Assembly: GCF_029664245.1 (NCBI RefSeq)
Contig: NZ_JANAIE010000010.1
Location: forward strand, 1-64,000
Reading direction: 5' to 3'
Length of the DNA: 64,000 nt
Origin: Profundicola chukchiensis
GTDB taxonomy: Bacteria > Bacteroidota > Bacteroidia > Flavobacteriales > Weeksellaceae
Shown: one piece after another, positions 19,613-51,659 of the stretch
How the letters are laid out: each line of letters opens with the position of its first letter
Numbering within the stretch: position 1 is the first letter of the stretch
Made by a program: the position numbers and the translations under genes
The notes under the pieces: generated by a model
What the model saw: the letters and a program-made list of their open reading frames with translations, nothing else
Told to the model about the DNA's origin: nothing
Database searches by the model: none

Positions 19613-21259
19613 TTAAGCTTCGCAGCTGCTACATTGAACTAAATTGCTCACCAAATCTTTAGAAACACTTTGGCTTCTTTGGTAGTACAAAGTTTTAACG
19701 CCTAATTTCCATGCTTCAATCATTAATTGATTGACTTCTTTAATAGATAAAGCAGAAGGAATATTTAAGTTTAAACTCTGTGATTGATCCACATATTTTT
19801 GTCGAATCGAAGCTTGTTGAATAATTTCTAATTGACTTATTTCTTTAAAGGTTTTGAAAACATCTTTTTCTTCCTGTGTCAACTCGTTTAAGTGCTGAAC
19901 ACTTCCTTGATTCAACATGATACTTCTCCAAGTATCTTCATTATCTAATCCTTTTTCTTCAAGTAATTTCTTCAAGTATTTATTCTTTCTCATGAAATTA
20001 CCTTTAGACAAACCTGCCTTATAATAGTTACTGCTAAAAGGTTCAATACCAGGTGATGTTTGCCCTAAAATAGCGGAAGATGAAGTAGTAGGAGCGATGG
20101 CTAATAAAGTTGTATTTCTGCGGCCATAATCTTGTAAAATTTCAGGTTCGCCATAAATTTCTGCTAACTCCATTGTTGCTTGCTCGGCTTTTGTCTGAAT
20201 ATTTTTAAAGATTTCTGTAGTCAATTGTTTAGCTCTTAATCCTTCAAACGGAATCATATTCTTTTGTAAATAAGAATGCCAACCTAATACACCCAATCCT
20301 AAAGATCTATGTCTTTTTGCAAATCTATTCGCTGATGCTAAATAATAGTTGTTTTCAGTTTTAACAATGAATTCCTGCAGAACAGCATCTAAGAAATAAA
20401 TGGCATATTTAACGGCATCTGTATCTTTCCATTCCTCGTATAATTCCAAGTTCATGGAAGACAAACAACAAATAAATGACTCTTCTTCGGTAGATGGAAG
20501 CATGATTTCGGAGCATAAATTACTCGCGTTAATCTTTAAGTTTAAATCTTTATAAACTTGAGGTTTGTTTCTATTGACATTATCTGTGTAGAAAATATAT
20601 GGCAATCCTTTTTGCTGACGAGATTCCAGCACTTTTGCCCAGATATTTCTTTTATCCATGTCGCCATCTATCATTTCTTGCATCCAATAATCTGGAACAC
20701 AAACGCCGTAGAATAGATTTTGAATAGGATTTCCAATGTTTTTAATGCTTAAAAACTCTAAAATATCTTCGTGATCAATGTCCAAATAAGCCGCAAATGC
20801 ACCTCTACGAACTCCACCTTGAGAAATAGTGTCCATAGCAGTGTCAAACAATTTCATGAAACTGACCGCACCGCTACTTCTTCCGTTGTCGGTAACCGTA
20901 CTTCCGCGAGCACGTAATTCACCAAAGTATCCCGAAGTTCCTCCACCAATTTTGGTTTGCATGATAACTTCTCCCAATTTATGCGTAATTCCTTCTATGT
21001 AATCCGGAACATGAACATTAAAACATGAAATCGGCAAACCTCTTTCTGTTCCCATGTTAGCCCAAATCGGTGAGCTTAAACTCATCCAACCATTTTCTAT
21101 TATTTCCGTGAATTTTTCTTTTAATTCAGGTTTATATAATCGTTTGCAAGCTGCTGTAGTAATTCTATCTATGGCACCTTCTATTGTTTCTCCTTTTAGC
21201 AAGTAACCTCGATTCAGGATTTGCTCACTTTCGTGGTTCAACCACCAATATTTTTCCAT
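19613..21259 (-). CDS. nrdA: Class I ribonucleotide reductase, alpha (large) subunit
   Basis: A 548-residue catalytic subunit converting ribonucleoside diphosphates to deoxyribonucleotides with NrdB. C79 (LPISCFN) is the first redox cysteine. The radical-site loop NLCSE lies near residue 248, and the C-terminal shuttle pair is C543/C546 (CSSC). The protein begins directly at the catalytic fold and is much shorter than E. coli NrdA, lacking the N-terminal ATP-cone, so overall activity control by dATP is not expected through that domain. It is the last gene of nrdB-thioesterase-nrdA; its start overlaps the thioesterase by 22 bases. The operon sits behind a cobalamin riboswitch. Confidence 0.93.
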   Translation of the reverse strand: MEKYWWLNHESEQILNRGYLLKGETIEGAIDRITTAACKRLYKPELKEKFTEIIENGWMSLSSPIWANMGTERGLPISCFNVHVPDYIEGITHKLGEVIMQTKIGGGTSGYFGELRARGSTVTDNGRSSGAVSFMKLFDTAMDTISQGGVRRGAFAAYLDIDHEDILEFLSIKNIGNPIQNLFYGVCVPDYWMQEMIDGDMDKRNIWAKVLESRQQKGLPYIFYTDNVNRNKPQVYKDLNLKINASNLCSEIMLPSTEEESFICCLSSMNLELYEEWKDTDAVKYAIYFLDAVLQEFIVKTENNYYLASANRFAKRHRSLGLGVLGWHSYLQKNMIPFEGLRAKQLTTEIFKNIQTKAEQATMELAEIYGEPEILQDYGRRNTTLLAIAPTTSSSAILGQTSPGIEPFSSNYYKAGLSKGNFMRKNKYLKKLLEEKGLDNEDTWRSIMLNQGSVQHLNELTQEEKDVFKTFKEISQLEIIQQASIRQKYVDQSQSLNLNIPSALSIKEVNQLMIEAWKLGVKTLYYQRSQSVSKDLVSNLVQCSSCEA

Positions 21260-21654
21260 TTGTCTATAATTTTAACAGGCTTTTTATTTTCGTCTACGGC
21301 AACAAATGTGAAAAAACCTTCAATACATTTGTCTCGCATATCATCAAACATATTTTCTCTAAATACTTGAACTTTAACCTTCATGCTTGTATTTCCGATA
21401 TCAACTATTTCTCCAATCAATTCTACAATGGAATCCGCAGGAATAGGTTTATTAAAGTCAATCTGACTCGAAGAAATCGTAACTATACTTTTTCTACAAA
21501 ATCTAGTTCCTGTAATAAAGGCAACTTCATCCATCATGTGCATTGCCGTACCACCAAATAGCGTGTTGTAATGATTGGTAGTATTGGGAAACACGACTTT
21601 GAATATGCTTGTTTTAGAACTAGCAATTCTTTCATCAATTGTATTTTGTGTCAT
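21238..21654 (-). CDS. Acyl-CoA thioesterase, hotdog fold
   Basis: A 138-residue YciA/BFIT-like acyl-CoA thioesterase with one hotdog domain. The motif HYNTLFGGTAMHMMDEVA carries the conserved Asn, Gly-Gly and acidic catalytic region. The chain ends in basic residues. It hydrolyses acyl-CoA to free acid and CoA in the cytoplasm; chain length is unknown. It is inserted between nrdB (1-base gap) and nrdA (22-base overlap), so it should be co-transcribed with ribonucleotide reductase and share its cobalamin control. No biochemical link between the two activities is known to me. Confidence 0.88.
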   Translation of the reverse strand: MTQNTIDERIASSKTSIFKVVFPNTTNHYNTLFGGTAMHMMDEVAFITGTRFCRKSIVTISSSQIDFNKPIPADSIVELIGEIVDIGNTSMKVKVQVFRENMFDDMRDKCIEGFFTFVAVDENKKPVKIIDKWKNIGG

Positions 21655-21655
21655 C

Positions 21656-22630
21656 TTAAAATAAATCTAGAGCGGTAATACTTTTATCGTGTTTGGTGTA
21701 ATCCACAGGACGTTTTGCAAAGAAATCATCTAAACTATTAGAGAAAACTTCTTCTTCAAACCACTTCATAGGAGCATATTGCTCTGAATTGATATGGTAA
21801 ATTTTGCTCAGTCCAATTTTAGATAAACTATCATCTACTCTAAATTTCATGAAGTTCATAATATCATTTTTAGATATCATTTCGAGCTCACCATCTTCAA
21901 AAATCCAATCTAGAATTCTTGATTCTACGGACATCGATTCTTTAATGATTTCAGTGATTTTGTCTTGAGCTTCTTGATCTAAAAACTCTGGGAATTCCTC
22001 TTGAATGATATTTATAATATGAATACCTGCATTGGCGTGAATTTGCTCGTCAATAGAAGTCCAAGCGATGATATTGCTGGTATTTTTTAAGTAACCTTTA
22101 AATCTTGTGAAGTAAAGAATAATCCCAAATTGACTGAAAAGAGAAACGTTTTCAACTAAAATTGAAAATAAAATTAAAGAAAACAAATACTCTTCATTCT
22201 TGTCAGATTTAGCATTTTGTAAAGCTTTTTTAAGATAAGCGATACGATCTGAAATAGCTGGAACTTGCTCTAATTTCTCGAACTCGTTGGTGTAATTAAG
22301 CACTTCGAGTAAGCGAGAATAGGCTTCTGAATGTCTAAATTCACACTCTGCAAAGGTGCTTCCTAAACCATTAAACTCTGGTTTTGGTAAATGCTGATAA
22401 AGATTTCCCCAAAAGCTTTTTACATTCACCTCGATTTGAGCGATTGCCAACAAACATTTTTTGATGATTTGTTGTTCATGAGGCATTAAATGACTTTGAA
22501 AATCTTGCACATCGGCCGTAAAGTCAATTTCTGAATGAACCCAAAAACTTTTGTTGATGCTGTCTGTAAATTGAGTTATTTCTGGATACTCAAAAGGTTT
22601 ATAGGCTTGACGTGGACTAAAAATACTCAT
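21656..22630 (-). CDS. nrdB: Class I ribonucleotide reductase, beta (small) subunit
   Basis: A 324-residue ferritin-like radical-generating subunit. The metal ligand pattern is intact: E67, E97, H100, E160, E195 and H198. Y104 sits at the radical tyrosine position (ExxHxxxY). It is therefore a conventional tyrosyl-radical type rather than an R2c protein lacking the tyrosine. It is the first gene of the operon. Its leader (22631-22888) contains a cobalamin riboswitch and a terminator-like hairpin, so expression should fall when B12 is plentiful. That usually implies a B12-dependent class II reductase elsewhere in the genome. Confidence 0.94.
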   Translation of the reverse strand: MSIFSPRQAYKPFEYPEITQFTDSINKSFWVHSEIDFTADVQDFQSHLMPHEQQIIKKCLLAIAQIEVNVKSFWGNLYQHLPKPEFNGLGSTFAECEFRHSEAYSRLLEVLNYTNEFEKLEQVPAISDRIAYLKKALQNAKSDKNEEYLFSLILFSILVENVSLFSQFGIILYFTRFKGYLKNTSNIIAWTSIDEQIHANAGIHIINIIQEEFPEFLDQEAQDKITEIIKESMSVESRILDWIFEDGELEMISKNDIMNFMKFRVDDSLSKIGLSKIYHINSEQYAPMKWFEEEVFSNSLDDFFAKRPVDYTKHDKSITALDLF

Positions 22631-22665
22631 AATATGCTTTTAATTTAAATTCTATTAAAAACATA

Positions 22666-22728
22666 AAAAGTAAAGGAACGAGGCTTTGAGCTAATGAAAC
22701 TACTCAAGCTTTGTAGACTTTTACTTTT
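22666..22728 (-). promoter_or_regulatory. Terminator-like expression platform of the cobalamin riboswitch
   Basis: The minus-strand transcript can fold AAAAGTAAA (22720-22728) with TTTACTTTT (22666-22674), enclosing an inner GCTT-GAG/CTCAAAGC helix, and is followed by a U-rich stretch before the nrdB ATG. It lies between the aptamer and the gene, where an attenuator is expected. Confidence 0.55.
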
Positions 22729-22750
22729 CATGCGAAAGATAAAGTCTTGT

Positions 22751-22864
22751 AGCTAAAAAGGCATTCTGGCTCAGGGATTTAAACTCCCAATACAGTTGCG
22801 CAACAGCTCACGATTCTAACGTGATTCCCCTTTGTCGTATCTCGATGAAGAGATAAATTTAGCT
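22751..22864 (-). promoter_or_regulatory. Cobalamin (B12) riboswitch upstream of nrdB
   Basis: Reading the minus strand 5' to 3': closing-helix strand AGCTAAA (22858-22864), then GGGGAATC and a small TCACG/CGTGA hairpin (about 22807-22830). Next come GAGCTGTTGCGCAACTGTA (about 22791-22809) and the B12 box GAGCCAGAATGCC (22760-22772), and finally TTTAGCT (22751-22757) pairing with the first strand. GCAACTGT and GCCAGAATGCC are the most conserved segments of adenosylcobalamin aptamers. Position and orientation match control of nrdB. Confidence 0.85.
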
Positions 22865-22887
22865 AAAAGAAGATTTATAATTTGACT

Positions 22888-22895
22888 CAAAAATA
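22888..22895 (-). promoter_or_regulatory. -7 promoter element of the nrdB operon
   Basis: The minus strand reads TATTTTTG, an exact TAnnTTTG match, 23 bases upstream of the riboswitch closing helix. That is the correct place for the transcript to begin. Confidence 0.5.
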
Positions 22896-23075
22896 GGGAT
22901 AATATTTCGACTCTTTGCCAGAAAAATGTTTTTAAGATGTGAACATATTATCAACAAAATAAAATATTTAAATCTTAAAATTTGAGTTATATACCTAATA
23001 ATATAAGGGATTAAAAGAAGTGATGATTGTAGATTTAATTCGAAGCAAAAGGCTTCTAAATAGGAAAGTATTTAT
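22896..23075. other. Intergenic spacer between the nrdB and gcdH promoters
   Basis: AT-rich spacer between the divergent promoters. A small GAAGC/GCTTC hairpin is present near 23041-23056. I see no gene or RNA in it. Confidence 0.3.
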
Positions 23076-23083
23076 TAAATTTG
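23076..23083 (+). promoter_or_regulatory. -7 promoter element of gcdH
   Basis: TAAATTTG matches TAnnTTTG exactly, giving a leader of about 85 bases before the ATG at 23173. No TTG is seen at the standard upstream distance. Confidence 0.45.
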
Positions 23084-23172
23084 TGGGTTATGATGCATTT
23101 CAAAAATGTGCATAGAAAAGACAATTTAAACAATAATTAAAAGTTACTTCAAAGAAAATAATTAATAATCAG

Positions 23173-24339
23173 ATGCAAATAAACACAGACTATTATCAGA
23201 TTGATGATTTACTGACAGAGGAGCACAAAATGGTGCGTGGAGCTGTTCGTGATTTTGTAAATCAAGAAATTAAACCAGTGATTGACCAACATGCTCATGA
23301 TCATACGGATATACCAGATTTAATGAAAAAATTGGGAGCTATTGGTGCTTTAGGGCCATATATTCCAGAAAAATATGGTGGAGCAGGTTTAGATCAAATT
23401 TCTTATGGTCTGATTATGCAAGAATTAGAAGCAGGTGATTCTGCTGTTCGTTCTTCAGCTTCAGTTCAATCTTCATTGGTAATGTTCCCAATTCATCAAT
23501 ATGCTACAGAAGAGCAAAAAATGAAATGGCTACCAAAATTAGCTTCGGGAGAATTGATTGGATGTTTTGGTCTTACTGAACCAAACCACGGATCTAACCC
23601 AGCTGGAATGGAGACTAAATTTGTTGATAAAGGTGATCACGTGGTATTAAATGGTGCTAAAATGTGGATTACCAACTCTCCAATTGCAGACATTGCTGTA
23701 GTTTGGGCTAAGGACGAAGAAGGTGTTGTAAGAGGAATGGTTGTAGAAAGAGGAATGGAAGGATTTACTACCCCAGAAACTCACAATAAATGGTCATTAC
23801 GTGCTTCTAAAACAGGAGAATTAGTATTTGAAAACGTAAAAGTTCCAAAAGAGAACTTATTCCCAGATATCAAAGGATTAAAAGGACCTTTATCTTGTTT
23901 AAACTCTGCTAGATATGGTATTTCTTGGGGTGTAATCGGTGCTGCCATCGACTGTTATGAAACCGCGGTTAAATACAGTTTAGAAAGAACACAATTCGGA
24001 AAACCATTAGCTGGATTCCAATTACAACAGAAAAAATTAGCTGAATTCTTAACTGAAATCACCAAAGCTCAATTATTATGTTGGAGATTAGGTACTTTAA
24101 AGAATGAAGACAAAGCTAGTCCAGCACAAATTTCTATGGCAAAAAGAAACAACGTAAAAATGGCCATTGATATCGCACGCGAGAGCCGTCAGATTTTAGG
24201 TGGAATGGGAATCGTTGGAGATTATCCAATGATGCGCCACGCTGCTAACTTAGAATCTGTAATCACTTACGAAGGAACTCACGATGTTCACTTGTTAATC
24301 ACAGGTATGGATATCACTGGAATTAATGCGTTTGGATAA
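23173..24339 (+). CDS. gcdH: Glutaryl-CoA dehydrogenase (acyl-CoA dehydrogenase family)
   Basis: A 388-residue FAD enzyme oxidatively decarboxylating glutaryl-CoA to crotonyl-CoA, a late step of lysine and tryptophan breakdown. It has the acyl-CoA dehydrogenase fold with the FAD-loop motif CFGLTEPNHGSNP and catalytic base E367 in YEGTHD. Features more specific to glutaryl-CoA dehydrogenase are VRSSASVQSSLVM, NSARYGISWG and the C-terminal TGINAFG. Lysine aminotransferase and the semialdehyde dehydrogenase of the same route lie 15-17 kb downstream. Subfamily assignment is by motif pattern; a short-chain acyl-CoA dehydrogenase is the main alternative. Confidence 0.88.
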   Translation: MQINTDYYQIDDLLTEEHKMVRGAVRDFVNQEIKPVIDQHAHDHTDIPDLMKKLGAIGALGPYIPEKYGGAGLDQISYGLIMQELEAGDSAVRSSASVQSSLVMFPIHQYATEEQKMKWLPKLASGELIGCFGLTEPNHGSNPAGMETKFVDKGDHVVLNGAKMWITNSPIADIAVVWAKDEEGVVRGMVVERGMEGFTTPETHNKWSLRASKTGELVFENVKVPKENLFPDIKGLKGPLSCLNSARYGISWGVIGAAIDCYETAVKYSLERTQFGKPLAGFQLQQKKLAEFLTEITKAQLLCWRLGTLKNEDKASPAQISMAKRNNVKMAIDIARESRQILGGMGIVGDYPMMRHAANLESVITYEGTHDVHLLITGMDITGINAFG

Positions 24340-34482: not shown

Positions 34483-34675
34483 ATTTTATTTGTTTTGGGC
34501 GTTTTACGGGCTTTTCATTGCAATCTTTTGCCATTCGGGTAAATTTGTAACTGTGAAAAAGGAGCTTCTATAGTCGCTCTTTTCTACCGACAAATTATAA
34601 ACCCTCATCAGCAAAAGGATTTTCATTTCAATCCCTAACGCATTTCTGTTTAAAAAATTATAGACACAAATGTAA

Positions 34676-51299: not shown

Positions 51300-51387
51300 G
51301 TTGTTATCAATTTAAATTTATAGGCATCTAATTTCTTGCCAAGATTCACGTTAGAGCTAGGAGAGAGCTCTAGCCCTGATTGTATTG

Positions 51388-51490
51388 AAAATCCTTTCTT
51401 TGCCAACAAGTTACAAAATACAACGACAAAGAGCGACCAAAGGAAGCTCCTTTGACTAGATATTTTTGTCTTGTTGGCAGAGAAAGATTG
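51388..51490 (+). ncRNA. Dispersed structured non-coding element, copy A
   Basis: A ~100-base sequence that recurs in inverted orientation at 59453-59556. An outer stem pairs CTTTCT (51394-51399) with AGAAAG (51481-51486), and GCCAACAAG (51402-51410) with CTTGTTGGC (51470-51478). An inner hairpin pairs CAAAGGA (51438-51444) with TCCTTTG (51448-51454). Flanks carry AGCTCTAGCCCTGAT on the left and CAGGAAATAGCTCCT on the right. Those flanks resemble a structured repeat found in many Flavobacteriia intergenic regions (Flavo-1-like). Whether it is a transcribed RNA or a mobile hairpin is not established. Confidence 0.6.
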
Positions 51491-51659
51491 AAAAGGAAAG
51501 CAGGAAATAGCTCCTTAAATAAATCTAAAGTTTTATTCAGATTCACAGTATAATTTTCAAATTTTAATGGATAATTCCCTTATTTTGGATAGGTCTTTGT
51601 AGCTTTATAGCTTGTAATTTTCTCAGTCGAGAAAGCGAAAAAAGTAAATAAATAGTTTT

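Follow-up and report, generated by a model that had tools for sequence, protein, structure and literature searches.

A short-form cobalamin riboswitch before a class I ribonucleotide reductase operon in Profundicola chukchiensis, with a proposed switch at the nrdB start

The nrdB operon and its genome

The DNA analyzed here, the window, is a stretch of 64,000 nucleotides constituting contig C11 of the 2.62-Mb genome of Profundicola chukchiensis, which is assembled in 108 contigs. On the minus strand there are three genes in the order nrdB, a thioesterase gene and nrdA. The first (21656–22630) encodes a class I ribonucleotide reductase small subunit of 324 amino acids that matches PF00268 with 218.9 bits (cut-off 33.6) and reaches no NCBIfam small-subunit cut-off. 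It is followed by a gene (21238–21654) for a 138-amino-acid protein resembling acyl-CoA thioesterases of the 4HBT hotdog type (PF03061, 61.2 bits), and then by nrdA (19613–21259), whose 548-amino-acid product is a class I large subunit of the NrdE-prime type (TIGR02510, 710.1 bits against a cut-off of 602.25; NF006577, 766 against 620). A first-pass annotation, made from the sequence alone, had placed a cobalamin riboswitch with a terminator-like platform before a class I reductase operon. The large-subunit scores confirm the operon, and the riboswitch does stand before it. The rest of that description has to be amended, in that the aptamer is a short variant, the platform does not look terminator-like and the operon has a third gene, that of the thioesterase.

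The same annotation had predicted that the genome would encode a class II reductase and would be able to take up or make B12. A Pfam search finds two reductase large-subunit barrel domains in the genome, one in the nrdA of the window and the other in NrdJ on contig C87, and the latter matches TIGR02504 with 461.4 bits against a cut-off of 399.95, so that the predicted class II enzyme is indeed there. A cobalamin adenosyltransferase is also encoded. The genome has two cobalamin riboswitches. The second scores 116.7 bits, has a long canonical aptamer, and precedes a TonB receptor, recognized by Pfam, and a DUF5074 protein that carries a type IX sorting tail. The best named family for the receptor is the B12 receptor TIGR01779, with 105.1 bits, far below the cut-off of 599.7, and the protein is BtuB-like by context only. 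This is a likely uptake locus, in keeping with the prediction. It resembles the Bacteroides BtuB/BtuG loci, of which that of B. thetaiotaomicron is repressed about 70-fold (PMC6143338, accessible excerpts); those loci differ from the nrdB leader in serving uptake genes and in having a long canonical aptamer. Bacteroidota with the switch before nrdB probably take B12 up.

The window also contains two Flavo-1 RNAs (RF01705), at 51368–51511 on the plus strand (64.9 bits) and 34500–34655 on the minus strand (44.9 bits), both above the gathering score.

A short-form aptamer in the nrdB leader

Within the nrdB leader there is a minus-strand match to RF00174 at 22739–22877, scoring 40.4 bits where the gathering score is 31.5 (cmscan, E = 9.7e-7 for the whole window). 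The leader thus passes the Rfam covariance check that had been suggested for it, and RF00174 is the best-scoring member of its clan. The aptamer-core motifs that had been singled out lie on the minus strand at 22799–22792 (GCAACTGT) and 22770–22760 (GCCAGAATGCC), and the -7 element noted upstream is present as TATTTTTG (22895–22888, minus strand), which matches TAnnTTTG, the Bacteroidota -7 consensus. Of 19 related leaders, 13 have this promoter box in the 110 nt preceding the aptamer, compared with the 1.4 expected from shuffles.

Matches above the cut-off connect the window (with RF00174) and some of its relatives (with any of the three) to the families RF00174, RF01689 and RF01482. Compared with RF00174, the aptamer of the window is missing some 59 positions of the consensus in the side region, and 7 bases stand there instead. 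Its score is only 9 bits above the RF00174 cut-off, and one relative, L039, falls below it (27.6 bits). The short-form relatives L074, L078, L224 and L229 reach the gathering score of AdoCbl-II (RF01689), L081 matches AdoCbl best, and L075, L080 and L082 have no match above any Rfam cut-off. A model built on an alignment of nine short cores including that of the window (R1) gives the window 110 bits, a score that is high by construction.

Using strict filters, R1 matches at E ≤ 0.01 are found in 157 of 395 genomes of the class, long canonical forms included. The ten best of these matches (75–111 bits) are all short forms, and nine lie directly before nrdB; downstream genes were checked at the loci returned by the class search. 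Also one of the ten is a short-form aptamer of 75.3 bits at L163 1775–1896 (genome G037), which stands before a gene of the NAD-dependent epimerase family. Altogether the short aptamer precedes nrdB in 18 genomes, and in six more a hybrid form or one of five canonical long forms (L068, L079, L134, L069 and L118) precedes class I nrd genes. In L069 the riboswitch is followed by an ATP-cone nrdA and then nrdB, and in L118 (4210–6000, Flavisolibacter) it lies before a dUTPase–nrdB–nrdA operon. The 19 nrdB leaders analyzed below are the 18 short forms together with L092, a long aptamer with short-form loops; L088 was recovered by R1, having been missed by a regex search. L121 comes from a contig filed as Thalassovita that carries a Bacteroidota-type nrdB and switch, and is perhaps misbinned. 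In 97 other loci R1 finds nothing before nrd genes, and 96 of the 97 are without any match. The remaining one is L153, whose riboswitch is not counted, as it is situated beyond the 3′ end of nrdA and serves metE.

The conserved core helices and the L5–L13 kissing contact of the RF00174 type are present. P13, the hairpin 3′ of the aptamer (22716–22746), is a 12-pair helix, and its loop CGCA at 22734–22731 is complementary to the UGCG of L5 (22799–22802). Comparison of the short-form sequences shows strong covariation. In a MAFFT alignment of nine sequences (A1) 91.6% of the cells are paired, with 33 double-change cells against 12.9 ± 3.3 after shuffling (none of 500 shuffles as high). For 18 sequences (A2) the paired fraction is 93.1%, and there are 79 double-change cells where shuffling gives 25.3 ± 5.2 (again none of 500); A2 was fitted to the model, and the MAFFT alignment A1 agrees with it. 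Sliding the helix partners in the 18-sequence alignment lowers the pairing to 51% or less. In this alignment ten of the P13 pairs have changes on both sides, and the kissing pairs are formed in 95.8% of the cells. The UGCG:CGCA contact is intact in 15 of the 18 sequences; L171 has a compensating UA to AU change, while one kissing pair is broken in L169 and two in L172.

The ligand would be adenosylcobalamin. Short cobalamin aptamers vary in their choice of upper ligand, and this gives some ground for thinking of another corrinoid, or of methyl- or aquocobalamin. Corrinoid riboswitches are moreover broadly sensitive to corrinoids (PMC9600662, in the accessible part). We nevertheless find such a ligand doubtful, although worth keeping in mind, since the five short-form relatives named above match AdoCbl-II or AdoCbl best, even if other relatives and the window itself have RF00174 as their best match, and since NrdJ uses adenosylcobalamin according to its family description.

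A proposed switch between P13 and the nrdB start

Between P13 and nrdB lies a strand on the minus strand that we term X (TTTACTTTTTATGTTTTTAAT, 22654–22674), which is complementary both to the 3′ strand of P13 and to the start region. The 3′ part of L13/P13 (CATGAAAAGTAAA, 22732–22720) can pair with X at 22674–22662, with a duplex energy of -14.6 kcal/mol compared with -8.2 kcal/mol for shuffles (p = 0.007). Shifted to 22665–22654, X can pair with ATTAAAAGCATA at 22644–22633, just before the AUG (p = 0.020). These two best pairings have 16 nt of X in common, and the calculated accessibility of the start region rises from 0.25 to 0.48 when X is captured (p = 0.008). Folding the window with P13 open gives the helix between the P13 3′ strand and X, together with a shortened helix between X and the start.

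We asked the same of all 19 leaders, with p values that are optimistic because the genomes are related. Pairing of the P13 3′ strand with X has p ≤ 0.05 in eight leaders and misses it in 11 (Fisher 9e-10). Pairing of X with the start region reaches this level in 13 (Fisher 2e-9), the exceptions being L080, L082, L164, L166, L167 and L170, and both pairings are significant in six (the window, L078, L121, L168, L171 and L172). Capture of X frees the start in 16 of the 19, with p ≤ 0.05 in six (Fisher 3e-5); in L088, L164 and L171 the accessibility stays the same or falls. At least 7 nt of X are shared by the two best pairings in 14 leaders, and fewer than 7 in L039, L075, L080, L081 and L092. 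When one member of each of three close pairs is dropped, leaving 16 leaders, the numbers significant for P13–X pairing, X–start pairing and accessibility are 7, 12 and 5, respectively. An earlier and narrower test of X–start pairing, in which the start region was shuffled, gave 5 of 18 (Fisher 0.004).

Controls were provided by 19 leaders of other cobalamin riboswitches, including five canonical nrd leaders; 14 were testable, three being too short and the loop not being found in two. X pairs significantly with the start region in two of the 14 (Fisher 0.16), and the five canonical-form nrd leaders do not display this pairing. The controls also have a mild excess of pairing between X and the P13 3′ strand (3 of 14, Fisher 0.003). 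The P13–X pairing is therefore partly general, and the clamp on the start region shows up in nrdB leaders of the short form, in a comparison where the effects of form and gene are inseparable because the controls are mostly long forms.

We consider it probable that the short-form riboswitch represses the nrdB–thioesterase–nrdA operon at high adenosylcobalamin, by a translational switch between P13 and X, so that NrdJ makes the deoxyribonucleotides. The aptamer, the kissing pair, P13, both X pairings of the window, NrdJ and the adenosyltransferase are all to be found in the sequence. The bound aptamer would hold the L5 loop (UGCG) against the P13 loop (CGCA) and so lock P13. X would then be free to pair with the stretch immediately ahead of the nrdB start and so to hinder initiation. 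In the absence of ligand P13 would open, its 3′ strand would capture X, and the nrdB start would be freer. Where B12 is plentiful the class I operon would thus be off, and the B12-dependent NrdJ, encoded elsewhere in the genome, would supply deoxyribonucleotides. The sign of the response would be repression, and control would be exerted at the level of translation. In Flavobacterium johnsoniae, which belongs to a phylum without Shine-Dalgarno sequences, structure at the start tunes initiation (PMC6847099, accessible excerpts), and this fits a start-region clamp.

The same riboswitch might act on transcription or on mRNA stability. In one form of this explanation the helix between the P13 3′ strand and X, with the TTTTT, would be an intrinsic terminator and B12 would turn the operon on; in the other there would be repression via the mRNA level, as in Bacteroides. 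A run of T does follow X in the window, and an activating corrinoid switch with P13 as antiterminator is known (PMC10653944, in the part accessible). However, the terminator-like platform seen by the first-pass annotation is not borne out, as there is no consensus terminator at 22560–23180, and the run of T is, by eye, missing from L121, L164 and L171. An intrinsic terminator was therefore rejected as the main platform. The match of X to the start region in 13 leaders would be unneeded by a terminator, and activation of a B12-independent enzyme by B12 makes little sense beside NrdJ. In B. thetaiotaomicron a B12 riboswitch cuts mRNA about 70-fold (PMC6143338, excerpts), evidence in that species against control by translation alone and a warning that the mRNA of nrdB may change too. 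On balance control of transcription or mRNA stability seems unlikely. Hindrance of translation by the riboswitch, which we prefer, is a testable model in a phylum without Shine-Dalgarno pairing.

Association with NrdJ and descent of nrdB

All 24 genomes in which class I nrd genes are preceded by a cobalamin riboswitch encode NrdJ. They comprise G000, G002, G038 and G051, 12 of 40 named genomes, and a further eight from the class sample; the presence of NrdJ in G279 and G100 was deduced from E-values of 1.2e-143 and 2.6e-144. The named set covers 40 of the 80 named loci, and there NrdJ is present in 12 of 12 genomes with the switch versus 10 of the 28 that lack it (p = 1.2e-4). Within the class sample it is present in nine of nine genomes with a short-form nrd switch versus 207 of 386 others (p = 0.005), among which there may be canonical nrd switches. 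NrdJ is not sufficient for the switch, since 18 genomes have NrdJ and this NrdB without it. Ten of these are in the named set, and the others are the relatives G005, G012, G013, G023, G025, G027, G033 and G047; absence at L094 was judged on only 65 nt of upstream sequence. G001, of the same genus as the window genome, has NrdJ and no NrdB match, and may therefore need B12 to make its DNA.

In a tree of 54 hand-chosen NrdB sequences that of the window groups with those of G002, G172, a Taibaiella MAG and the related L074, all of which bear the switch (97/80). A clade of 14 rows, containing most of the chosen family members of the window genome, has no switch (99/100). The switch label needs 6 changes on this tree compared with 17.4 when shuffled. 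It is likely that the operon and switch were transferred between groups, and loss elsewhere is also possible.

An aptamer that came with a transferred operon might be a decayed relic that no longer regulates. The low RF00174 score could be read in this way, as could the placing of the window NrdB with the Taibaiella MAG and its relatives, apart from the large clade of its own family. Against this are the compensatory changes across 18 sequences, the significance of the window's own X pairings, and the occurrence of NrdJ, the receptor locus and the adenosyltransferase in the genome. We regard decay as very improbable, and favor a working switch.

Comparison with known systems

Class I reductase is under B12 control in Streptomyces. 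In Desulfovibrio vulgaris and Desulfuromonas a B12 element lies before the genes of the B12-independent reductase NrdDG in genomes that also encode NrdJ, and repression by B12 was proposed; such control beside NrdJ is said to occur in other genomes too (PMC545781, accessible part). The nrdB operon of the window shares with those systems a riboswitch before a B12-independent reductase, an NrdJ-encoding genome and the proposed repression. It differs in that the enzyme is of class I and not class III, and in the Bacteroidota host, the short aptamer, the proposed start clamp and the thioesterase in the operon. There is also a likeness to the metE riboswitch of Priestia megaterium, in which P13 is stabilized by a kissing loop and, when no ligand is bound, has its 3′ side paired with a strand lying further downstream (PMC10653944, excerpts). 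There the freed strand builds a terminator, whereas X in the window would pair over the start region.

The principle of control is thus already known, while the short variant and the accompanying thioesterase are less familiar. A literature search from which subscription papers were mostly out of reach found no report of such control for class I genes of Bacteroidota, of the start-region clamp proposed here or of a link to the thioesterase, and absence from the literature is unproven. As the synthesis of DNA precursors is essential, the switch would tie replication to the supply of B12 in these Bacteroidota.

The thioesterase of the operon

Relatives of the thioesterase (E ≤ 1e-25) are found in 39 of 295 class genomes, and at 16 of the 30 loci examined the gene is linked to a cobalamin riboswitch. 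Twelve of these have a same-strand riboswitch in the 1.5-kb upstream flank, five via nrdB, five directly and two at a distance of 0.7–1.0 kb; a thirteenth flank match (L225, 16.6 bits) was left out of the count. In the other four the model match lies 2.0–2.6 kb upstream by coordinates, the thioesterase gene being behind metE in three (L203, L207 and L208); the fourth is L202. The frame before the thioesterase in L202 had been taken by eye for a TonB receptor, an assignment that was dropped because it has no Pfam family. Beyond the 30 loci, L155 and L157 have a model match right before the thioesterase that is below the Rfam cut-off, L188 has one above the cut-off 0.4 kb before it, and in L039, L081 and L088 the thioesterase follows nrdB. 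L174 is also among the loci having the thioesterase under a cobalamin riboswitch.

Solved relatives of the protein include many acyl-CoA hydrolases, from E = 6.9e-22 on. We lean towards the view that the thioesterase is an unlisted B12-deficiency gene of Bacteroidota, repeatedly placed under riboswitches (alone, or behind metE or nrdB), that would have a B12-sparing role, perhaps hydrolyzing acyl-CoA that accumulates when methylmalonyl-CoA mutase lacks its cofactor. The mutase is present in all 16 genomes with a riboswitch-linked thioesterase. It is, however, found in 274 of the 295 genomes generally and is missing from 7 of the 39 with the thioesterase, an excess over other genomes (p = 0.012, with G384 assigned from its absence among the matches), and the idea of mutase relief is weakened by this. 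None of the seven mutase-less genomes has a riboswitch-linked thioesterase, judged at the locus for two and by the lack of a listed R1 match for all seven. The switch before nrdB suggests that an uncharacterized thioesterase takes part when cells respond to a shortage of B12.

Similar secreted proteins of about 330 amino acids are encoded just after short cobalamin riboswitch matches in L177 and L178, that of L177 having no Pfam family above the cut-off. Others of the same kind are encoded 0.4–0.5 kb after such a match in L180 and L181, while in L205 and L215 the gene directly follows that of the thioesterase.
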